This document shows positions 5,962 to 63,867 of a DNA stretch of 64,000 bases, piece after piece (within the stretch, counting starts at the first letter, position 1; every line of letters starts with the position of its first letter). The notes below the pieces were generated by a model. The model had not been told where the DNA came from. It did no database searches and worked only from the letters and a program-made list of their open reading frames with translations. This stretch comes from Candidatus Zixiibacteriota bacterium. GTDB taxonomy: Bacteria > Zixibacteria > MSB-5A5 > WJJR01. The translations under genes were made by a program, and so were the position numbers. The stretch is from the NCBI GenBank assembly GCA_036397555.1, contig DASWIS010000008.1, positions 434,001 through 498,000 of the forward strand, in the 5' to 3' direction.

Positions 5962-6717
5962 ATGAGCACACAGCGGCCCCATCAGTCGGCGATCGTCATC
6001 GCGCGAGGTTTGCGCAAACGCTTCGGTCAACTGATTGCCCTTGACGGTGTCGATCTGACCGTGGGCCATTGCGAAGTCGTTGTCTTAGTCGGCCCCTCAG
6101 GCGGCGGCAAGTCCACGCTGTTGCGGTGCCTCAATGGACTGGAACGCCCCGACTCCGGCACCATTGAAATCTCCGGCAACTCGGTCAATGCACGCAGCGC
6201 CGACATCAACGCCCTGCGCGCCAAGACGGGGATGGTTTTCCAGCAGTTCAACCTGTTTCCGCACTTGACCGCATTGGAGAATGTCGCGTTGGCGCCGCGT
6301 GTCGTTCTGAAGCTATCGAAGACGGATGCGCAGGTGCGGGCACGCGAGAACCTGGATCATGTGGGGTTGGGCGAGAAACTCCATTCGCATCCCGCCGAGT
6401 TGTCCGGAGGCCAGCAACAACGAGTCGCGATTGCGCGCGCATTGGCGATGGGACCGAGCGTCATGCTCTTCGATGAGCCGACATCGGCGCTCGACTCCGA
6501 AATGATCGGCGAAGTGTTAAGCGTCATGCGGCGATTGGCCGAAGATGGCATGACGATGGTCATCGTGTCCCACGAACTGGGTTTTGTCCGTGAAATCGCG
6601 CACCGTGTCGCATTCCTCGAGGGCGGACGGATCATCGCGTCGGGCTCGCCGCAGGAGATGCTGGTTGCGCCGACGCATGAGCGCATCCGCAAGTTCATTG
6701 AAAACGTCGTCCGCTAA
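5962..6717 (+). CDS. glnQ: Amino acid ABC transporter, ATP-binding protein
   Basis: 251-residue ATPase that powers the uptake system. Walker A GPSGGGKST (about 44-52), Q-loop FQQFNLFPHLTALEN, ABC signature LSGGQQQRVAIARAL, Walker B VMLFDEPTSALD and switch-region histidine (VSHELGF) are all intact. Start is ATG 5962, 11 nt after the permease stop; the longer in-frame reading to 5428 only translates the permease gene out of frame. The 3' end overlaps the start of the subtilase gene by about 41 bp. Confidence 0.95.
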   Translation: MSTQRPHQSAIVIARGLRKRFGQLIALDGVDLTVGHCEVVVLVGPSGGGKSTLLRCLNGLERPDSGTIEISGNSVNARSADINALRAKTGMVFQQFNLFPHLTALENVALAPRVVLKLSKTDAQVRARENLDHVGLGEKLHSHPAELSGGQQQRVAIARALAMGPSVMLFDEPTSALDSEMIGEVLSVMRRLAEDGMTMVIVSHELGFVREIAHRVAFLEGGRIIASGSPQEMLVAPTHERIRKFIENVVR

Positions 6718-8410
6718 TCGCGGTCGTGGCCGACGCTGCCTGACGGCCGTGTCACTCCTCATGGCGTGCGCTGGCGCCGCGGTGCTCAGCGCCGGACCGA
6801 CCGAAAGCACGTTGAGATCGGGCGTGATCGCCGCCGCACACGATGCGCGGCCCATCTGGGTGTTTCTCAGAGATAAGGGACACGCTCGCTCCGAAATTCA
6901 TCCGTGGGTCTCGCCGGCGGCGATGGCGCGGATTACGCTCCGTGGCGGAGCGTACAATGCCGCGCTCGACATCCCCGTCAACAGGGTGTACCGAGACGCA
7001 GTTGAAGACATGGGGGCGGATGTGCGCGCCGAAAGCCGCTGGTTCAATGCCCTGGCGTGCCGCATCCCGATTGACCGGCTCGACGATGTCGCCTCGTTGC
7101 CGTTTGTCGACTCGCTGCAGCCGGTCACGATCTATCGACGGCCGCGAGAAGTCGTTGAGGACGGGTCGCCGCGCGACCATGTCGCGCCCTCCCCCGGCGC
7201 AATGGTTGCCTTCGACTATGGTCTCTCGCTCTCCCAGCACACCGCAATCGGTGTCGATTCCCTGCACCGGGCCGGACTCGATGGACAAGGCGTCAAGATC
7301 GGTTTCCTGGACACTGGGTTTTCCCTGGGAATTGAGGTTTTCGACTCACTGCGGCTGATGGCCGCGCGCGACTTCATCGATGGTGACGACGATGTCGAGG
7401 ATGAGGACTTTGCCCAGATGCGGCACGGCACGCAGACGCTCTCATTGTGCGCGGGCTTTGCCCCGGGCGAATTGATCGGAGTTGCGCCGCGCGCCCAGTA
7501 TGCGGTAGCCAAGACCGAGTACGTCGATCTGGAAATCGAAATCGAGGAATCCAACTGGGTCGCCGGGCTTGAGTGGCTCGACTCGATCGGCTGCGACCTG
7601 GTATCCAGTTCGCTGGGATATGCCGAGTGGATTGCCCCGGAAGACTTCGACGGCAACACCGCGCTGTCGACCATCGCAGCCGACATGGCGGCGGCGCGCG
7701 GCATGCTGGTCGTCAATGCCGCCGGAAACGGCGGCTGCGGCGGTGGGCCGCACCTGCTCGTGCCCGCCGATGGTGACTCGGTCCTGGCGGTGGGGGCGGC
7801 GACGCTGTCCGGTGAAAAGGCCTCGTTTTCGTCGTGCGGCCCGACCGCCGACGGGCGGATCAAGCCCGATGTCATCGCTCCGGGTGTCGGCGTGCGCGTT
7901 GCATTCCCCCTGACGGGTTACGGCGCTGCCAACGGGACTTCGATGGCCACGCCCATCGTCACCGGCGTGTGTGCCCTCGTGCTGCAGAATGATCCCGACC
8001 TGACTCCCTTTGAACTGATCGAGCGATTGCGCGCATCCGGCGATGCCATCATTCCCGGAAACGATATCGGCTGGGGCTTTATCCGCGCGGTGATGGCGGC
8101 CGGGATCATCGTCGATCGACCGTGGCTGCGCGACCTGAAAGCCATCCGCGCTTGGCCGAATCCCGCGACCGACAGGATGACCGTATCGATCCCGCGTGAA
8201 GATCTCATGGCTGGCAACGGCACAACACAGCTCCAGGTCTATGCCATCAACGGACGGATCGTATTCGATACGCTCTTTGAAGGGCAAGAGGTCGAATGGA
8301 ATGGCCGCACCGCCGATGGGAATCGTATCGCGACGGGGATATACCTCTGTCGTGTGAAGACTCCGCTCCAGGAGGATCTCATCAAGATCGCCTGGAAGTC
8401 CGCACCATGA
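6677..8410 (+). CDS. Secreted subtilisin-like serine protease with C-terminal sorting-type domain
   Basis: S8-family protease, about 577 residues from ATG 6677. Signal peptide about 1-40 (RGRGRRCLTAVSLLMACAGAA). Catalytic triad: Asp in GFLDTGF (about 212), His in MRHGTQ (about 250), Ser in GTSMATP (about 422), with the oxyanion Asn in NAAGNGG (about 351). A propeptide-like region lies between. The last 95 residues (from IRAWPNPATDRM to YLCRVKTP) form a FlgD-Ig/type IX-style C-terminal domain common in FCB-group secreted proteins. The start is uncertain: TTG 6698 is an alternative, and both overlap the ATPase gene. Outer-surface or extracellular location is inferred. Confidence 0.92.
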   Translation: MSASASSLKTSSANRGRGRRCLTAVSLLMACAGAAVLSAGPTESTLRSGVIAAAHDARPIWVFLRDKGHARSEIHPWVSPAAMARITLRGGAYNAALDIPVNRVYRDAVEDMGADVRAESRWFNALACRIPIDRLDDVASLPFVDSLQPVTIYRRPREVVEDGSPRDHVAPSPGAMVAFDYGLSLSQHTAIGVDSLHRAGLDGQGVKIGFLDTGFSLGIEVFDSLRLMAARDFIDGDDDVEDEDFAQMRHGTQTLSLCAGFAPGELIGVAPRAQYAVAKTEYVDLEIEIEESNWVAGLEWLDSIGCDLVSSSLGYAEWIAPEDFDGNTALSTIAADMAAARGMLVVNAAGNGGCGGGPHLLVPADGDSVLAVGAATLSGEKASFSSCGPTADGRIKPDVIAPGVGVRVAFPLTGYGAANGTSMATPIVTGVCALVLQNDPDLTPFELIERLRASGDAIIPGNDIGWGFIRAVMAAGIIVDRPWLRDLKAIRAWPNPATDRMTVSIPREDLMAGNGTTQLQVYAINGRIVFDTLFEGQEVEWNGRTADGNRIATGIYLCRVKTPLQEDLIKIAWKSAP

Positions 8411-36107: not shown

Positions 36108-37373
36108 ATGCTTGACTTGAAGTTTATCCGCGAGAATCCCGAACGGGTCAGCAGCGGGTCGCGCAACAAGAACGAACCGGACCGTGTTCACGAAGTCCTG
36201 GTGCTCGATGAGCAGCGACGCGCGATCATCGGCACGGTCGAGACACTCAAGCACGAGAAAAACACCGCGTCACAACAGATCGCGCAGTCCAGGAAGTCGG
36301 GGCAGGATGCGACCGACGCCATCACCGCGATGCGTCAGGTATCCGACCGCATCCAGGAGATGGACAACCAACTGCGCGAAGTTGAATTGCAGTTGCACGA
36401 ATCGCTGCTCCGTATTCCCAATCCGCCCGATGTCGACCTTCCCGTCGGCGACGAGTCCCATAATCGTGAGATTCGCTGCTGGGGTGAGCCGCCGTCGTTC
36501 GCATTCAAGCCGCTCCCGCACTGGGAGCTGGGCGAGGCACTGGGCATCTTCGATGCGACGGCGTCCGCCAATGTCGCGGGCTCGGGGTTCACGGTTCTCA
36601 AACGTGACGGCGCCCGGCTTCAGCGCGCGCTGATTAATTTCATGCTCGATACGCACCGCGCGCGCGGATACGAGGAGTACCGCCTCCCGTATCTGGTAAC
36701 GCCCCGTACGATGACCGGCACGGGTCAGTTGCCGAAGCTGGCCGAGGACATGTACAGGATCGAATCCGACGATGTATACCTCATTCCCACGGCCGAAGTG
36801 CCGCTCACCAATTTGTCCGCCGATTCGATCATCCCCCAGTCTCATCTGCCGCAACGAATGGCGGCGTACACGCCCTGCTTTCGCCGGGAGGCGGGCGCAC
36901 ACGGCAAAGACACGCGCGGGATGATGCGCGTGCACCAATTCGACAAAGTGGAACTGGTCAAAATCGTCGAACCCGAATCGTCACCCGACGAACACGAATC
37001 CTTGACCGCCGATGCCGAAGCGATTCTCCGCGCGCTGAAGCTGCCATATCGCGTACGGCTTCTGGCGACCGGTGATCTCTCGTTCGCCGCAGCCCGTTGC
37101 TACGACCTTGAAGTCCACGCGGCCGGGGTCGATGCGTGGCTGGAAGTCTCCTCGTGCTCGAACTTTCGTGACTTTCAGGCCCGACGGATGGGGCTGCGTA
37201 TCCGTCCGGCCGATGGCGGCAAACCATACTTCCCCCACACCCTGAATGGCTCGGCGCTGGCATTGCCGCGTACGATGATCGCCATTTGGGAAAACTATCA
37301 AACGGCCAGGGGAACGATCCGAATCCCCGACGCGCTGATCCCCTTCATGGGTGGGCAGACCGAAATTGCGTGA
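36108..37373 (+). CDS. serS: Serine-tRNA ligase
   Basis: Charges tRNA-Ser with serine. 421 residues. N-terminal coiled-coil arm (DLKFIRENPERVSSG, then long charged helices). Class II motif 2: TPCFRREAGAHGKDTRGMMR. Motif 3: NGSALALPRTMIAIWENYQT. LEVSSCSNFRDFQARR is also typical. Starts with MLDLKF, the usual SerRS opening. Single gene, not obviously part of the polysaccharide locus. Confidence 0.97.
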   Translation: MLDLKFIRENPERVSSGSRNKNEPDRVHEVLVLDEQRRAIIGTVETLKHEKNTASQQIAQSRKSGQDATDAITAMRQVSDRIQEMDNQLREVELQLHESLLRIPNPPDVDLPVGDESHNREIRCWGEPPSFAFKPLPHWELGEALGIFDATASANVAGSGFTVLKRDGARLQRALINFMLDTHRARGYEEYRLPYLVTPRTMTGTGQLPKLAEDMYRIESDDVYLIPTAEVPLTNLSADSIIPQSHLPQRMAAYTPCFRREAGAHGKDTRGMMRVHQFDKVELVKIVEPESSPDEHESLTADAEAILRALKLPYRVRLLATGDLSFAAARCYDLEVHAAGVDAWLEVSSCSNFRDFQARRMGLRIRPADGGKPYFPHTLNGSALALPRTMIAIWENYQTARGTIRIPDALIPFMGGQTEIA

Positions 37374-37463: not shown

Positions 37464-38687
37464 GTGCGACGACGACTCTGGCGTATCATCCATGATCCCG
37501 CCGGCTACACCGGCCTGCCCCTGGCGTTTAAGGGTCTGCTCATTCTGGGATTGGCTGTCATCGCCGCGCTGCTGATTTATTCCACCACCAAACTGGTCAC
37601 CAAGCTGAAGGAGTCCGAACGGCGGCTCGCGCAGGCGTACGCCGCGCAGTGGAAGCGTGCCGCCGAAACGACCGATCCGCAGGAGATCGGCTATCTCTTC
37701 GAGCAGATCATCATCAAAAGCGACTTCCCGATCATCGTCGCCGAGCCCGCCGGCGACCCCCTGTACTGGCGGGGACTGCCGGGAATTGCCGATCACGACA
37801 CCATCGGTGCGACACGCGAGCGCATCCGCGCGATGATGGTTGACATGTCACGCGAGTATCCTCCCGTGCCCATCACCTACGGTGACCATCTGCTGTACAA
37901 CCTTCACTATGGCGACTTTCGCCTGCTCTCAAATGTGCAGCGTCTGCCGTATATCGGCATTGCCGTGATGGCGCTGTTCATACTGATCGCGTATGTCAGC
38001 TTCCGCAACATCAAGCGAGCCGAGCAGCGCTATATTTGGGTCGGCATGGCCAGGGAAACGGCGCATCAACTGGGCACGCCGCTGTCGTCCTTGATGGGAT
38101 GGCTGGAACACATATCCGAGCAGCGTGATGCCGCTCCTCAGAATGTCGAGATTATCAATCACATGCGGGCCGACGTCGCGCGTCTGCGTCTCGTGGCGAA
38201 TCGTTTCGGCATGATCGGGTCGGTGCAAGACAAGAGCGTACTGCCGGTCGCGCCGATCGTGCGCGAGACGACCGCTTACTTCCGTGCGCGCCTGCCCCAT
38301 TCCGGCACCGGCGTGGCGCTACTCGAAGACTACCAGCCGGCGCCGTCGGTGCCGATCAATGCCGATCTGATCGCCTGGGTGCTGGAGAATCTCATCAAAA
38401 ACTCTTTGGATGTCGTAGATTCCAGGACCGGACGCATCATGGTCGCGGTCCGTCCGCACGCGAAAGACGGCGTGATCATCAGCGTCGAAGACAACGGCCC
38501 CGGCATTCCGGCGCGCGACCAATCGAAGATTTTTCATGCGGGCTTCACGACCAAGAAGCGCGGCTGGGGGCTGGGATTGACCCTGGCACGACGCATCGTC
38601 ATGGAATACCACGACGGCGATTTGTACCTGGAGACATCGGTGCCGCAGAAGGCCACGCGCTTCGCCCTGCATTTGCCGGCATCATGA
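37464..38687 (+). CDS. Membrane sensor histidine kinase (PorY-like)
   Basis: 407 residues. Two TM helices (about 22-40 and 162-180) enclose a 120-residue outer sensor region. H-box ARETAHQLGTPLSSL with His201; N-box ENLIKNSLD (about 308-316); G1 DNGPGIPARD (343-352); G2 WGLGLTLARR (368-377). Starts at GTG 37464; GTG starts occur elsewhere in the window. Followed 41 bp later by a PorX-like regulator, so the pair is read as a two-component system. The kinase is PorY-like in layout and length; identity with PorY is inferred from this neighbour. Confidence 0.9.
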   Translation: MRRRLWRIIHDPAGYTGLPLAFKGLLILGLAVIAALLIYSTTKLVTKLKESERRLAQAYAAQWKRAAETTDPQEIGYLFEQIIIKSDFPIIVAEPAGDPLYWRGLPGIADHDTIGATRERIRAMMVDMSREYPPVPITYGDHLLYNLHYGDFRLLSNVQRLPYIGIAVMALFILIAYVSFRNIKRAEQRYIWVGMARETAHQLGTPLSSLMGWLEHISEQRDAAPQNVEIINHMRADVARLRLVANRFGMIGSVQDKSVLPVAPIVRETTAYFRARLPHSGTGVALLEDYQPAPSVPINADLIAWVLENLIKNSLDVVDSRTGRIMVAVRPHAKDGVIISVEDNGPGIPARDQSKIFHAGFTTKKRGWGLGLTLARRIVMEYHDGDLYLETSVPQKATRFALHLPAS

Positions 38688-38728
38688 CGTATCGTCACGT
38701 GGGGCCAGTCGTTCACGAGAGGAGTCAC

Positions 38729-40300
38729 ATGTCACAAGCTCCCAAGCAGGTGCTCTGGGTCGACGACGAAATCGAGATGCTCAAGCCGCACATCATCGTG
38801 CTGCAGGAGCGCGGATATGAAGTCACCGGCGCCCATTCCGGCGATGACGCGCTGGAGTATGTCCAGAAGCAGCGCTTCGACCTGGTCCTGCTCGATGAGC
38901 ACATGCCGGGGCGCGACGGCCTCTCCACGCTGGAAGAGCTCAAACGGCTTGCCCCCAACCTCCCGGTCGTGATGGTGACCAAAAGCGAAGAAGAGCACCT
39001 GATGGATCAGGCGATCGGTAAGAAAATCGACGACTACCTCACCAAACCGATCAATCCATCCCAGGTCGTCTCGGTCGTCAAGAGGCATCTCGAACGCCGC
39101 CGCATCGAATCAGAGCATCTGGCGCGGCAGTACGTCGAGGACTTCCGCCGGCTGCAGGAAAACCTCCCGCGTAACGCCGACTGGAGGAAATGGATCGATG
39201 CGCACTCGGTCTTGTCGCGCTGGGATCTCGAACTGGACCGCTTTACCAATCTGGGACTCGATCAGACACACCGTGAACACAAGCGCGAGACCAATACCGA
39301 GTTCGGCCGCTGGGTCGAGACCTACTATCCGCAGTGGCTGGCCCAACTGGATTCACCTGACCGTCCGCCGCTGTCGATTGATGTCATCGACCGCTGGGTG
39401 GCGCCGCACCTGCGCGAGGGACGCAAGGTCTACTTCTTCGTGATCGACTGCATGCGGCTGGACCATTGGCTGGCCATCGAGCCGGAGTTGGCGGAGTCCT
39501 TCGAGATCAAACGGGACCACTATTTCTCCCTCTTACCGACGGCGACCCCGTTTTCGCGCAACGCCATCTTTTCCGGTATGTTCGCCGATGAAATTCAACG
39601 GCTGTATCCGGAGCTATGGCAGATCGGCGACAAAGATGAGTTTTCACGCAATCGGCTGGAACGACAACTGCTCGACCAACAATTGGCGCGGCTGGGCGTG
39701 CGGCTGAAGGGCGAGGCGCGTTATGTCAAGGTTCTCGACTTTAGCGAGGGCGACAACCTGGCGCGCAAATTCGGCTCTTATCTCAATCAGCCGCTGTTGT
39801 CGGTCGTGTACAACTTCATCGACCATCTATCCCACGGGCGTTCCGAGGATGAAATCCTCCATGAACTGGCCCCCGACGAGGATGCATTTCGTAAACTGGC
39901 CAAAACGTGGTTTCTGAATTCCTCGTGGGTGAAGGTCATGCGCCAGATCGCCTCCGACCCGGATGCGGTTGCGATCGTTACGACCGATCACGGCAGCATC
40001 ATGGGGACACGCGGCACGGTTGTGCACGGCCGGCGCGACACCTCGTCGAATCTGCGTTACAAGTATGGCGACAATCTCAAGGCCGAGCCGAAAGACGCGG
40101 TGTTCGTCCGCGACACGAAGTCATACCGGCTGCCGAGTTTCACGATTAACACGACGTATCTGATCGCCAAGGAAGACTGTTTCTTCGTCTATCCGACCAA
40201 TTTCAACGAGTACCAGCGCAAGTTCGCCAACACCTTTCAGCATGGCGGCATTTCGTTGCCGGAAATGGTGCTGCCGATTGCCACACTGACGCCGAAGTAG
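38729..40300 (+). CDS. porX: PorX-like response regulator with PglZ/alkaline-phosphatase domain
   Basis: 523 residues. The N-terminal receiver has Asp12-Asp13, phospho-acceptor Asp56 (LLDEHMP), Thr84 and Lys106. A helical linker (about 120-230) leads to a PglZ/alkaline phosphatase-superfamily domain: Asp240 (VIDCMRLDHW), Thr273 (TATPFSRNAIF), HLSHGRSEDE, and Asp420-His421 (TTDHGS), the expected metal/catalytic residues. No DNA-binding output domain. This architecture and length match PorX, which controls type IX secretion genes in Bacteroidota. ATG 38729 has GAGAGGAG 4 nt upstream; the in-frame ATG 38684 does not. Confidence 0.93.
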   Translation: MSQAPKQVLWVDDEIEMLKPHIIVLQERGYEVTGAHSGDDALEYVQKQRFDLVLLDEHMPGRDGLSTLEELKRLAPNLPVVMVTKSEEEHLMDQAIGKKIDDYLTKPINPSQVVSVVKRHLERRRIESEHLARQYVEDFRRLQENLPRNADWRKWIDAHSVLSRWDLELDRFTNLGLDQTHREHKRETNTEFGRWVETYYPQWLAQLDSPDRPPLSIDVIDRWVAPHLREGRKVYFFVIDCMRLDHWLAIEPELAESFEIKRDHYFSLLPTATPFSRNAIFSGMFADEIQRLYPELWQIGDKDEFSRNRLERQLLDQQLARLGVRLKGEARYVKVLDFSEGDNLARKFGSYLNQPLLSVVYNFIDHLSHGRSEDEILHELAPDEDAFRKLAKTWFLNSSWVKVMRQIASDPDAVAIVTTDHGSIMGTRGTVVHGRRDTSSNLRYKYGDNLKAEPKDAVFVRDTKSYRLPSFTINTTYLIAKEDCFFVYPTNFNEYQRKFANTFQHGGISLPEMVLPIATLTPK

Positions 40301-40350
40301 GCCATGCGTCGGTTGGATTGTCCCCGAATGTGAATCGAGGAACGCGTTTG

Positions 40351-40800
40351 ATGGCGGCCCCGCCGCAAACCGTGCGTCGTGAATGCGGCAGTGTGGCCGA
40401 GACCGAGGCAGCCGCTGCGGAATTTGCACAAGATCTGGCGCCGGGCGACTGGGTCGGACTGATCGGTACCCTGGGAGCCGGTAAGTCGGTCTTTGCGCGT
40501 GCCGTGGCAAGGGCGCTGGGGGTCACATCGGCCATCCCGTCACCGACTTTCACGATCCTCAACTGCCTGAGCGGTCGACTCCCCGTGTATCACATCGATT
40601 GTTATCGTGTTTCGACGGCTTCGGAACTGGAGTTCGCTGGCGTCTGGTCATGCTTCGACAGTGACGGTGTTTGTCTCGTCGAGTGGGCGGACCGGATCCC
40701 CGAAGCCTGGCCCGATAATGCCTGGATCGTGTCGATCGAGGCCATTGACGCAGTGCGCCGACGCATAGCAATCACACGGCATCAACTCGGGCACGCATGA
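40351..40800 (+). CDS. tsaE: tRNA threonylcarbamoyladenosine biosynthesis ATPase
   Basis: ATPase of the t6A37 tRNA-modification complex. 149 residues: Walker A GTLGAGKS (about 39-46), PSPTFTILN, HIDCYR (81-86), and EWADRIPE (111-118). ATG 40351 follows GAGGAA (40336-40341). Overlaps tsaB by 4 bp (ATGA), so the two t6A genes are coupled. Confidence 0.94.
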   Translation: MAAPPQTVRRECGSVAETEAAAAEFAQDLAPGDWVGLIGTLGAGKSVFARAVARALGVTSAIPSPTFTILNCLSGRLPVYHIDCYRVSTASELEFAGVWSCFDSDGVCLVEWADRIPEAWPDNAWIVSIEAIDAVRRRIAITRHQLGHA

Positions 40801-59728: not shown

Positions 59729-59791
59729 CGAGCAGATTGCCCCGTCCGTCGGGGCCCGTGACTTATGGATGATCGATCAAGGAGGACAGGG

Positions 59792-62700
59792 ATGAAACGC
59801 TGGATACAGGCGGGCACGGCGTTCCTCGTGGCGCTACTCGCCGTCGATGCGGTCATGGCGGCGGTCCCCATGCGCCATCAGCCCTCGCGCGCGGAAATTG
59901 CCATCATCGACGGCACCACGACGTTTGACGCAAACAACCTCGAGATGTTCGTGACCAATGTCGGCAACTTCGCCTACGACCGCTCGGCCTCGCGCGGACG
60001 GAATGACGGTCTGTACTTCCCGAAGGGAACCTCGCAGACCGCCATTTTCGCCGGCGGCATCTGGCTGGGAGGGAAGATCAACAACGTGATCCAACTGTCG
60101 GCAGCCGAATTCTCAGACGACTTTACTCCGGGCCCGATGCTCGACGGCACCTATCAGCCCGATCGCGGCAGTTTCCGCGTCTACAAAATCAAAAAGGGAG
60201 ATACCCGCGAGAGCAATCCGCACTATCGGGACTGGCCCTTTGCCGATGGCGCGCCGTTTGTGAAAGATGCAAACGGTGACCCGGTGTACGATGACGAGGA
60301 ATACATGATCCCGCTGTTGCTGGGCGATCAGGCGCTGTGGTGCGTCTTCAACGATGCCGATTTCGCCGATCACGCCTCCGATGTCGGCCTGGGGTCCACG
60401 CGGCCGCTGGGCTTGGAAGTACAGCTTTACGTGTTCGGCTACGCACGCTCCGGCGCGTTGGGCAATACGATCTTTATGCGCTACAACATCATCAACAAGG
60501 GCGATGCGACCATCGACAGCATGTTCGTTTCGCTGTGGGCCGATCCCGACTTAGGCGGCGCCAGCGATGACTTTGTCGGATGCGACACCCTGCGCTCGCT
60601 GGGCTTCTGCTGGAACGCCACAAACGCCGACCAGGTCTACGGATCAATGTGTCCCGCGGTCGGCTACGACTTCTTCCAGGGACCGATCGTTCCGCTTGAA
60701 GAGGGTGAAATCGACTCGGCGTGGGTGTCGAGCAAGGGCATGTACATCCAGGGGTACAAGAATCTGCCGATGACGTCGTTTAACAAGTACATCAACGGGA
60801 CCGACCCGAACAATAACATCGAGGCCTTCAACTACATGCGCGGTCTCAGCCGTGAAGGAGACATTCAGATCGATCCGTTCACCGGCCAGCCGACGAAATT
60901 CGTTTTGACCGGTGACCCCAACGCGGGCACCGGCTGGCTCGATGAAAACGAGAGCGACCGCCGTTATATGATGAGTTCGGGGCCGTTCACGATGGCTCCC
61001 AACGACTCGCAGGAAGTGGTCGCCGCCGTCCTGGTCGGACAGGGAACCAACAATCGTGAGTCAGTCGATGTCCTCAAGCGTCTCGACGATATCGCTCAGT
61101 CGGTTTTCGACGCCAATTTTGACATCCCCGGTCCGCCGCCGCCGCCGCAGGTGTGGGCGGTGCCCTATGACGGCGCCATCCAGCTTCTCTGGGGAACGCA
61201 GTCCGATGGAGACGTGCAGGAAGCGCTCGGACCGCCCGATGACGAAGGCAATCAGGAAGTCATTCAGCGATTCGTCTTCGAGGGATACAACGTTTACCAG
61301 GGTCAGTCCGGTTCCGGCCCCTGGACCCTGATCAGCACATTTGATGAAGAGAATGGCGTCGAACGCATCTACTTCGATGTCGACAATCCCGCTGGGAAGG
61401 AACGCATTGTTACGCAGCGGGGCTCCGACGCCGGTGTTGCTCATGATTTGTGGATTACACAAGACCGTGTCAACAGCCGCGCGATCATCAACAATCGTCC
61501 CTACTGGTTCGCCGTCACCGCGTACAACTTCGACGCACTCAATCAATCCGACTTTGTGGTCGGCGGAAATACATTCGGCATCATTGCTGAATCATTCGAA
61601 AACCTGATCAGCTCCCAGTCGGTCGAGGTGACGCCGGCTTCGTATACGGGCATACTGGCGGACACCGCCGAACACATTGAGGGTATCAGCGGCGGCACGG
61701 TCTTAGTCGACGTCGCCAGCCCGGGAATGGTCACCGGACATACCTACCATGTGACGTTTAACGAAGACGCTTCATGGAATCTTGTCAATACGACGACGCA
61801 AATGACGGAGTTGGAGGATCAGCAGGGCGCGATCGCGTCGCAAATCGTCGATGGATTCGTCGTCCGGGTGCTGGGACCTGCTGCAGGCGTCAGCGCCATC
61901 GTTGAAGTCGCCAACGGCGGCGGTCCGGTCGATCCGCCGGACAACGTCATGTATAGCCTTAACTCCACCGGAGACTGGTACGTATCGTCGGATCAAGCGA
62001 ACAATTTTGGCAGACTAAACTGGCAAGGGCTGATTGGGATCAGCGATTGGGAGTTTCGTTTTACGGAAGAGGGGTCCGAGTACTACGACTTCAATACCGA
62101 CACCAAGTGGGGGAATCGTACCCCATTTGAGGTCTGGAATATCGGCGTCGGAACACCCGACGACCCTTCCGACGATCGCCAACTGCAGTTTGCGGTCATC
62201 GACGACGATGAGTCGGGCGGCTGGTCGATGGGTGACCGTATCTACGTGATTGAACTGGACTATTTCGAGCCGCTCCCGGATGACTTCGATTTCGGCGGGA
62301 ACTTCCCCGACCAGTTCCACATCGGACGCATCGTGTTCAATGACAATTCGGGCAACGGTCCGCCGCCGACCGGAACGATTGCGCGCTTCTCGACGCACAA
62401 GCCCAATGCCATGGGTGACATCTTCGAGTTTACGACAGTGCTGACCGATATGAACGACGGCACCGTGATCGCCAACACGGTCGAAAACGTGCATCCGGTC
62501 CCGAATCCGTACTACAACACGCACGCGCTCGAGGTCGACCAGTTCAATCGTTTCATCAAGTTCATCAATCTGCCGCCGACCGAGGTGACGATCCGCATTT
62601 TCAATCTCGCCGGCGATTTGGTCAAAACCATCCAGCGCACCGATCCGACGCAGGCCGAAGCGCGCTGGGACAATATCACCAACGAGGCGGGCGTCCCGAT

Positions 62701-62803
62701 CGCCTCGGGACTGTACATCTATCACATCACGGCCGAGGGACTGGGCAGCAAAGTCGGCAAGATGGCGATTTTCACCGAAGTGGAGCAGCTCGACAACTTC
62801 TGA
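59792..62803 (+). CDS. Large secreted/surface protein with C-terminal FlgD-type domain
   Basis: 1003 residues. Signal peptide about 1-24. No enzyme motif seen. A Pro-rich break (PGPPPPPQVWAVPYDG) precedes fibronectin-like sequence (VFEGYNVYQGQSG). The last ~95 residues (HPVPNPYYNTHALEVD to AIFTEVEQLDNF) form a FlgD-Ig/type IX-style C-terminal module with the usual PNPYY start and SGLYIYHI core. ATG 59792 has GGAGG with a 6-nt spacer. Cotranscribed with the TonB receptor before it and the PorV-like gene after it. Probably exported and attached at the cell surface; role unknown. Confidence 0.85.
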   Translation: MKRWIQAGTAFLVALLAVDAVMAAVPMRHQPSRAEIAIIDGTTTFDANNLEMFVTNVGNFAYDRSASRGRNDGLYFPKGTSQTAIFAGGIWLGGKINNVIQLSAAEFSDDFTPGPMLDGTYQPDRGSFRVYKIKKGDTRESNPHYRDWPFADGAPFVKDANGDPVYDDEEYMIPLLLGDQALWCVFNDADFADHASDVGLGSTRPLGLEVQLYVFGYARSGALGNTIFMRYNIINKGDATIDSMFVSLWADPDLGGASDDFVGCDTLRSLGFCWNATNADQVYGSMCPAVGYDFFQGPIVPLEEGEIDSAWVSSKGMYIQGYKNLPMTSFNKYINGTDPNNNIEAFNYMRGLSREGDIQIDPFTGQPTKFVLTGDPNAGTGWLDENESDRRYMMSSGPFTMAPNDSQEVVAAVLVGQGTNNRESVDVLKRLDDIAQSVFDANFDIPGPPPPPQVWAVPYDGAIQLLWGTQSDGDVQEALGPPDDEGNQEVIQRFVFEGYNVYQGQSGSGPWTLISTFDEENGVERIYFDVDNPAGKERIVTQRGSDAGVAHDLWITQDRVNSRAIINNRPYWFAVTAYNFDALNQSDFVVGGNTFGIIAESFENLISSQSVEVTPASYTGILADTAEHIEGISGGTVLVDVASPGMVTGHTYHVTFNEDASWNLVNTTTQMTELEDQQGAIASQIVDGFVVRVLGPAAGVSAIVEVANGGGPVDPPDNVMYSLNSTGDWYVSSDQANNFGRLNWQGLIGISDWEFRFTEEGSEYYDFNTDTKWGNRTPFEVWNIGVGTPDDPSDDRQLQFAVIDDDESGGWSMGDRIYVIELDYFEPLPDDFDFGGNFPDQFHIGRIVFNDNSGNGPPPTGTIARFSTHKPNAMGDIFEFTTVLTDMNDGTVIANTVENVHPVPNPYYNTHALEVDQFNRFIKFINLPPTEVTIRIFNLAGDLVKTIQRTDPTQAEARWDNITNEAGVPIASGLYIYHITAEGLGSKVGKMAIFTEVEQLDNF

Positions 62804-62835: not shown

Positions 62836-62853
62836 GTCACAATGGAGGCAGGG

Positions 62854-63867
62854 ATGAGATTCACTCGAATGTTGACAATCGGAGCGGTCGTGCTGCTGTT
62901 GCCGGCGGTCGTCCGCGCGGGTGATGATTTGAAGATCGGTACCGCCGGCGCGCAGGAACTCCGCATCCCGGTCGGCGCGCGCGGGGCCGCCATGGGCGGC
63001 TCGGGCGTGGCCTTTGCCACCGGCATCGATGCACTCTTCTGGAATCCGGCGGGCGCGGCGACCATTCAGGGCGTCGATGTCATGTTCTCGCGGCGCGAGT
63101 ACATCGCCGATATCGATGTCGATTACATCGTCGCCGCCTCGACGATCGGCGACATGGGGGTGTTCGGCATCACGGCGAAGATTCTCTCGATGGGCGATGA
63201 GTTGATCACGACCTTCGAGGCGCCCAACGGCGATGGAACGACCTTCGGCTCATCGTTCTCGATCATCGGTTTATCGTGGTCACGGACGATGACAGACCGC
63301 GTGGCGGTCGGGCTCAGCGGTAATGTCGTCTACGAGAAGATCGCCGAGCAGGCGGCCACCGGTGTGGCGTTTGACGCCGGTGTCCAATACAATCCCGGCT
63401 GGAACAACCTGACATTCGGCGCGGTCATCAAAAATCTCGGCCCCAAAATGCGATTCGACGGCAAGGGTTTCGACGAGGACGCGGGAACGTCCGATGATCC
63501 CAGCGGACGCGATCATGTCGCGCGCACACGGTCCTCGAGCTTCGAGCTGCCCTCGTATGTCCAGCTCGGTATGGCATACAAGGCGATGGAACAGAACAAC
63601 TCGGTCGTCAATCTCACCGGCGCATTCCAATCGAACAACTTCTCCGAAGACGAATTCCGGGCCGGTGGCGAGTACGCCTACAACGATGCATTCTTTGTGC
63701 GCGCCGGGTATACCGAGTCCAACCAGAGTCAGTATTTGTATGGATTCTCGGCCGGTGCGGGTGTCCAGTTTGAATTGGGAGACACGCAGCTTCAGGTCGA
63801 CTATGCCTGGGGCGAAAGTGAGTTCTTCGACAACAATCAGACGTTCTCACTGACAGTCAATTTCTAA
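62854..63867 (+). CDS. PorV/PorQ-family outer-membrane beta-barrel protein
   Basis: 337 residues. Signal peptide about 1-22. GARGAAMGGSGVAFATGIDALFWNPAG is the PorV/PorQ (UPF0164, FadL-like) opening. Alternating beta strands run through to the end, closing QTFSLTVNF with C-terminal Phe. ATG 62854 follows GGAGG (62844-62848) with a 5-nt spacer. PorV proteins carry type IX cargo or act as surface shuttles in Bacteroidota; here it follows a cargo-like protein gene. Last gene of the operon before a strong terminator. Confidence 0.93.
   Translation: MRFTRMLTIGAVVLLLPAVVRAGDDLKIGTAGAQELRIPVGARGAAMGGSGVAFATGIDALFWNPAGAATIQGVDVMFSRREYIADIDVDYIVAASTIGDMGVFGITAKILSMGDELITTFEAPNGDGTTFGSSFSIIGLSWSRTMTDRVAVGLSGNVVYEKIAEQAATGVAFDAGVQYNPGWNNLTFGAVIKNLGPKMRFDGKGFDEDAGTSDDPSGRDHVARTRSSSFELPSYVQLGMAYKAMEQNNSVVNLTGAFQSNNFSEDEFRAGGEYAYNDAFFVRAGYTESNQSQYLYGFSAGAGVQFELGDTQLQVDYAWGESEFFDNNQTFSLTVNF

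Follow-up and report, generated by a model that had tools for sequence, protein, structure and literature searches.

The serS–porY–porX–tsaE locus

The locus lies within a 64,000-nucleotide stretch of DNA (the window) from a member of the Zixibacteria, outside the Bacteroidota, and its nearest relatives, judged by PorX, are loci of Candidatus Zixiibacteriota genomes (73-80% identical). The host genome comprises 2.63 Mb in 35 contigs, with a listed completeness of 100% and a contamination of 0.06%. Two genes of the + strand fill the locus: one coding for a histidine kinase (37464-38687) and then one for a response regulator, whose open reading frame opens at 38684. On the same strand, serS ends 90 bp upstream of the kinase gene and tsaE starts 17 bp downstream of porX. 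No convincing promoter or terminator was found between these four genes by a promoter scan and a search for terminator-like sites, which were no commoner than in shuffled sequences. The features are as follows.

36108-37373, + strand: serS-like gene, directly upstream of porY, in the conserved order serS-kinase-porX-tsaE of relatives
37464-38687, + strand: porY, sensor histidine kinase of 407 aa with a GTG start, HATPase_c, two predicted transmembrane segments and the H-box ETAHQLGTP
37584-37952, + strand: sensor region of PorY outside the cytoplasm, predicted to form a small PAS/Cache-like fold (AlphaFold pLDDT 75)
38064-38066, + strand: codon of the predicted phospho-donor His201, at the H-box position (ETAHQLGTP)
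38717-38724, + strand: Shine-Dalgarno-like GAGAGGAG, read from the sequence before the likely porX start
38729-40300, + strand: porX, 523 aa, with receiver, helical linker and PglZ/alkaline-phosphatase-superfamily domain (NCBIfam NF052313 629.8 bits; PDB PorX; fold)
40318-40800, + strand: tsaE-like gene, directly downstream of porX; the porX-tsaE order is kept across FCB, including most Bacteroidota loci

Although the open reading frame of the regulator opens at 38684, the ATG at 38729 is the likely start of porX, because GAGAGGAG precedes it and relatives begin there; the alignment with one of them (L009) starts at residue 16 of the longer reading frame. The NCBI equivalog model for PorX, NF052313, already recognises the regulator, at 629.8 bits against a cut-off of 300 and over model positions 2-513 of 513, and the sequences of PorX crystal structures in the PDB match it at 422-425 bits, the next PDB sequence scoring 65 bits. 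Fold comparison of the predicted structure (pLDDT 86) gives PorX chains as the only full-length matches (best E 2.4e-63, TM 0.82); other kinds of match begin at E ~2e-10. The initial annotation had described a PorX-like regulator with an intact receiver (Asp56), intact PglZ residues (Asp240, Thr273 and Asp420-His421) and no DNA-binding domain, all of which holds, the numbering being exact with the 523-aa start: Pfam yields only Response_reg (92.6 bits) and PglZ (43.1 bits), and neither Pfam nor the full-length fold match reveals a DNA-binding output domain. In an alignment of 21 FCB PorX proteins, the receiver residues Asp12, Asp13, Asp56, Thr84 and Lys106 are invariant, and so are seven zinc/catalytic residues, Asp240, Thr273, Asp365, His369, Asp420, His421 and His505, the equivalents of Asp237, Thr271, Asp360, His364, Asp414, His415 and His499 in Flavobacterium johnsoniae (PMC11320123). 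Thus domain order, length, receiver residues, the seven zinc/catalytic residues and overall fold are common to this protein and to PorX of Porphyromonas gingivalis (PDB 7pv7, 7pva, 7pvk) and F. johnsoniae (8ted, 8p6f). On the other hand, identity in the structural match is 36-40%, the host lies outside the Bacteroidota, the gene adjoins that of its kinase, and there is no recognised PorL for the protein to bind. Judged by sequence and predicted fold, the identification of the regulator as PorX can be regarded as settled.

The kinase matches HATPase_c (72.6 bits) and, weakly, HisKA in Pfam, with no HAMP. Its membrane segments are predicted by inspection at about residues 23-41 and 163-181, enclosing a periplasmic loop of ~120 aa. 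The best PDB match of the sensor region is the sensor domain of WalK, a weak match (probability 0.93 but E 0.045); because the fold matches are weak, no ligand is proposed. PorY of P. gingivalis has been described as a protein of 395 aa with transmembrane segments at 14-36 and 149-173, a loop of ~115 aa and His193 (PMC5005315). Compared by this published description, the P. gingivalis kinase (PGN_2001 / PG0052) and that of the window agree in length, two transmembrane segments, a loop of ~115-120 aa and H-box position, as expected from the PorY-like layout noted initially (407 aa and His201 in the window). The gene positions differ, since porY lies ~1000 genes from porX in P. gingivalis and adjoins it here.

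Type IX secretion parts and motor proteins in the host

Three further genes of the window bear on type IX secretion.

6584-8410, + strand: subtilisin-like protease with a type IX-like C-terminal domain (CTD) (TIGR04183 23.0 bits at 8153-8365; PorZ CTD region 30.2 bits; subtilase matches)
59765-62803, + strand: large protein with a type IX-like CTD at the detection limit (TIGR04183 23.1 bits at 62546-62740; PorU-type CTD region 18.8 bits)
62842-63867, + strand: PorV/PorQ-family outer-membrane protein (NF033709 PorV_fam 176 bits, cut-off 90)

The presence in the window of type IX CTDs and of a PorV/PorQ protein, both claimed initially, is borne out, and both CTD matches barely reach the TIGR04183 cut-off of 23 bits. 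The outer-membrane protein remains below the PorV and PorQ equivalog cut-offs (72.1 bits against 250 for the PorV equivalog), and the subtilisin-like protease is a candidate secreted substrate. A search of the genome for sov/sprA, suggested by the initial annotation, found Sov/SprA on another contig (G000:C31:223100-228784) with 611.7 bits against a cut-off of 200, and 623.9 bits when scored as a protein, together with 27 TIGR04183 matches over the cut-off; the PorU model gave only CTD-like matches. The host is thus not a genome entirely devoid of Sov/SprA and PorK-N, the case that the initial annotation had named as fatal to its interpretation. Two of the CTD matches (G000:C9:3757-3993 and G000:C12:14896-15132) have the same score (46.3 bits) and the same open-frame length on different contigs, and possibly represent a duplicated segment. 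In the region of sprA (L140:10774-18343), murB-like and ftsZ-like genes precede sprA, and the genes that directly follow it are one of peptidase-like and one of helix-hairpin-helix (RuvA/ComEA-like) type.

The picture is different for the motor proteins. The same initial list included porL and porM, and here nothing was found: the curated models TIGR03517 and TIGR03513, applied to this genome and 23 others, exceeded their cut-offs only in Bacteroidota, whose controls were strongly positive, and two widened profiles gave no convincing PorL or PorM in the Zixibacteria (this genome and a handful more of the phylum), Ignavibacteria, Calditrichota, Eisenbacteria, Latescibacteria, Cloacimonadota, KSB1 and Fibrobacteres genomes tested. 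Both widened profiles include a divergent cluster from a genome titled Bacteroidetes (G144), clearly of FGE-sulfatase/GldL/GldM type, to which the curated GldL and GldM models give merely 14.6 and 59.9 bits. Because an evident pair scores so low, PorL and PorM are best described, from these sequence searches, as not recognised in the host; divergent versions could be missed, and absence is not proven. For PorN, one model (TIGR03523), searched without a positive control, gave no match in the genome. Compared with the type IX secretion system of Bacteroidota, the host therefore has in common the Sov/SprA translocon, a PorV-family protein, CTD-bearing proteins, PorX and PorY, and differs in its phylum, in the unrecognised PorL and PorM and in the lack of a PorN match with that model. 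A comparable set, with Sov, PorX and PorY and without PorK, PorL, PorM and PorN, has been reported in a survey for a Bacteroidetes incertae sedis group (PMC7323717).

Several minor observations were made on motor-like genes. In the G144 cluster (L149:16-3123 and L105; G144:C59, ~6.5-10.5 kb), GldK-like FGE-sulfatase, GldL-like and GldM-like genes stand in a row, the GldL-like protein having 360 aa and a transmembrane hairpin and the GldM-like protein 342 aa, apparently without the first domain of GldM; a PDB search with this divergent GldL returned coiled-coil noise. The weak GldL matches that were inspected did not read as PorL-like; among them were a protein of flagellar hook type, a sensor containing a PAS domain and a peptidase-like protein whose C-terminus carries a sorting-like domain. 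Just beyond the window (L143:8139-12051; G000:C8 ~505.6-509.6 kb) lies what reads as a Tol-Pal-like cluster, with a TolQ/TolR-like pair and followers, so that an ordinary membrane-potential-driven motor pair is present in the genome.

Proposed signalling and competing explanations

In Bacteroidota, the interaction and phosphotransfer between PorY and PorX, the action of PorX on SigP and a zinc-dependent phosphodiesterase activity have been published (PMC5005315, PMC8050853, PMC11320123), and PorL is a reported binding partner of PorX. The locus is best read, with a probability of roughly 0.8, as the porY–porX two-component operon of a Zixibacterium with a type IX-like secretion system, in which PorY would pass phosphate to PorX and the output of PorX would support SprA/PorV export. 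PorY, an inner-membrane kinase, would sense an envelope signal, perhaps through its small periplasmic PAS/Cache-like domain, a weak structural match. It would then autophosphorylate on His201 and transfer the phosphate to Asp56 of PorX, as adjacency, orthology and the published P. gingivalis biochemistry suggest; for the window pair itself, it is adjacency that points to this transfer. Phosphorylation or zinc may alter the dimer state and activity of the alkaline-phosphatase-type domain of PorX, whose catalytic residues are all conserved, and the resulting output may support the SprA/PorV machinery and its CTD-bearing cargo, with which PorX co-occurs, at the level of either expression or activity. 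Because PorL is not recognisable, a CheY-like action on a PorL motor is the least supported output here; PorX more likely acts on gene expression, by way of a sigma factor or DNA, or by hydrolysing nucleotides. The initial annotation had linked PorX/PorY to an ECF sigma gene, rightly seen as partial at the window start (the complete gene codes for 206 aa, L142:9865-10485). This gene, at a distance of ~37 kb, has matches to general ECF models only, mostly below equivalog cut-offs; nothing ties it to PorX, and its identification as SigP is not supported.

The most serious competing explanation accepts both proteins as true PorX and PorY orthologs and assigns them mainly to general envelope-stress or nucleotide signalling through the phosphodiesterase domain, the type IX link being secondary or acquired in Bacteroidota. 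It would fit the failure to recognise PorM and PorL, the reported PorX partner, in the host, and the position of porXY among housekeeping genes (serS, tsaE) and not beside secretion genes; moreover, PorXY of P. gingivalis also responds to hemin and oxidative stress (PMC8050853), and zinc can activate PorX (PMC11320123). However, the host has SprA and CTD proteins, and both PorX and SprA are near-universal in its phylum, exceeding their cut-offs in 118 and 123 of 132 Zixibacteria genomes, respectively. Most of the 14 genomes without a full PorX hold SprA, and their listed completeness is 64-87%, except for one (G055) that is 93% complete and carries a PorX fragment at a contig edge. Conversely, neither protein passes its cut-off in any of 14 control genomes, a Bacteroides among them. 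The near-universal presence of PorX and SprA is consistent with dependence, which such a pattern cannot prove, and against this background a mainly envelope-stress or nucleotide-signalling role appears unlikely.

Much less probable is that the kinase is an orphan unrelated to PorY, a mere neighbour, so that homology with the Bacteroidota system would be confined to the regulator. The family matches of the kinase are indeed generic, the libraries used have no PorY model, and PorY of P. gingivalis was compared by its published layout. Nevertheless, when a profile built from porX-adjacent kinases was searched in 22 genomes (this one and 21 other FCB genomes), 20 of the 21 others each yielded exactly one full-length ortholog, with 288-469 bits, and no further kinase exceeded 124 bits; in that search the ortholog was not found in one Prolixibacteraceae genome of unstated completeness. 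Eight of the ortholog-bearing genomes are strict Bacteroidota (Flavobacteriaceae, Flavobacterium, Cryomorphaceae, Prevotellaceae and other Bacteroidales), and in all eight the single ortholog stands far above other kinases. One Bacteroidaceae ortholog has 392 aa and His194, against 395 aa and His193 in the published PorY. A tree places the 36 kinases compared in a single clade, apart from nine other kinases (support 100/100), and its main groups are shared with the PorX tree. Because of this single ortholog per genome, the single clade, the published layout and the parallel tree groups, it is concluded from sequence comparison that the kinase is PorY, by orthology to the single-copy Bacteroidota kinase.

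Finally, it is scarcely credible that the regulator belongs to the PglZ response regulators outside PorX, such as those related to BREX PglZ: the shared PglZ domain brings it to 78.8 bits against a cut-off of 250 for BREX-3 PglZ, whereas the 629.8-bit end-to-end match to PorX, the PDB sequence and full-length fold matches, which are to PorX only, and a place inside the FCB PorX tree (81% identity to a Zixibacteria PorX) led to the rejection of this candidate.

Gene order and history of the pair

The papers on this system have asked whether PorX and PorY are partners, and disagree on the target of PorX, which may be DNA, SigP, PorL or a phosphodiesterase reaction (PMC5005315, PMC8050853, PMC11320123). 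They stress that porX and porY lie ~1000 genes apart in P. gingivalis and call both of them orphans (PMC5005315, PMC11320123). Adjacency is informative about the pairing because the literature treats the two as distant orphans, and the finding of porY and porX as direct neighbours in several deep FCB phyla constitutes independent evidence for a cognate pair. Zixibacteria, Eisenbacteria and one Fibrobacteres locus share the order serS-kinase-porX-tsaE, of which one Latescibacterota genome has the part kinase-porX-tsaE. Most loci of Ignavibacteria, Calditrichota and Bacteroidota have retained porX-tsaE, with the kinase elsewhere; in all 20 ortholog-bearing genomes, the kinase ortholog is absent from the DNA around porX, up to 6 kb on each side. 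When the kinase tree is rooted on other kinases, these "elsewhere" kinases of Calditrichota, KSB1, Ignavibacteria and Bacteroidota form one clade (95/98), and the remaining lineages have the kinase adjacent to porX, two Cloacimonadota excepted. Because the rooted tree groups the "elsewhere" kinases in one supported clade, the porY–porX operon was probably ancestral and split later, the deepest forks being not firmly resolved.

The initial annotation had left open whether the host lay outside the Bacteroidota; it belongs to the Zixibacteria, and the control system is thus extended. A type IX secretion system has been suggested for Chlorobiota, Ignavibacteriota, Rhodothermota, Gemmatimonadetes, Cloacimonadota and Fibrobacterota, a list in which Zixibacteria does not appear (PMC11285876), and the literature search found no paper combining the two subjects of Zixibacteria and type IX secretion. 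The two-component system itself is thus a known one, in a gene arrangement and a phylum undescribed in the literature found. The control circuit is not confined to Bacteroidetes, and is a near-universal trait of Zixibacteria. The identification is solid and the operon layout bears on the old question of pairing; a surprise could yet come from the unrecognised motor, and the apparent lack of PorL and PorM makes these lineages natural cases for asking which output of PorX is conserved. A bolder proposal, conceivable but on balance doubtful, would make the PorY–PorX circuit older than the rotary type IX motor of Bacteroidota. The operon would have existed in an early FCB ancestor beside SprA-based export without PorL and PorM, its original output would have been something other than motor switching through PorL, and the split would have occurred in the ancestor of Calditrichota, Ignavibacteria and Bacteroidota.

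Two Zixibacteria loci depart from the common arrangement. In one of them (L100; G108:C311), porX-tsaE is accompanied by a phosphoglycerate-mutase-like gene in the place of the kinase. This departure counts against the preferred explanation, and is taken here as a local loss or move of porY. In the other, from a metagenome-assembled genome (L010:4640-5963), a frameshift interrupts porY at the H-box and probably reflects an assembly error.
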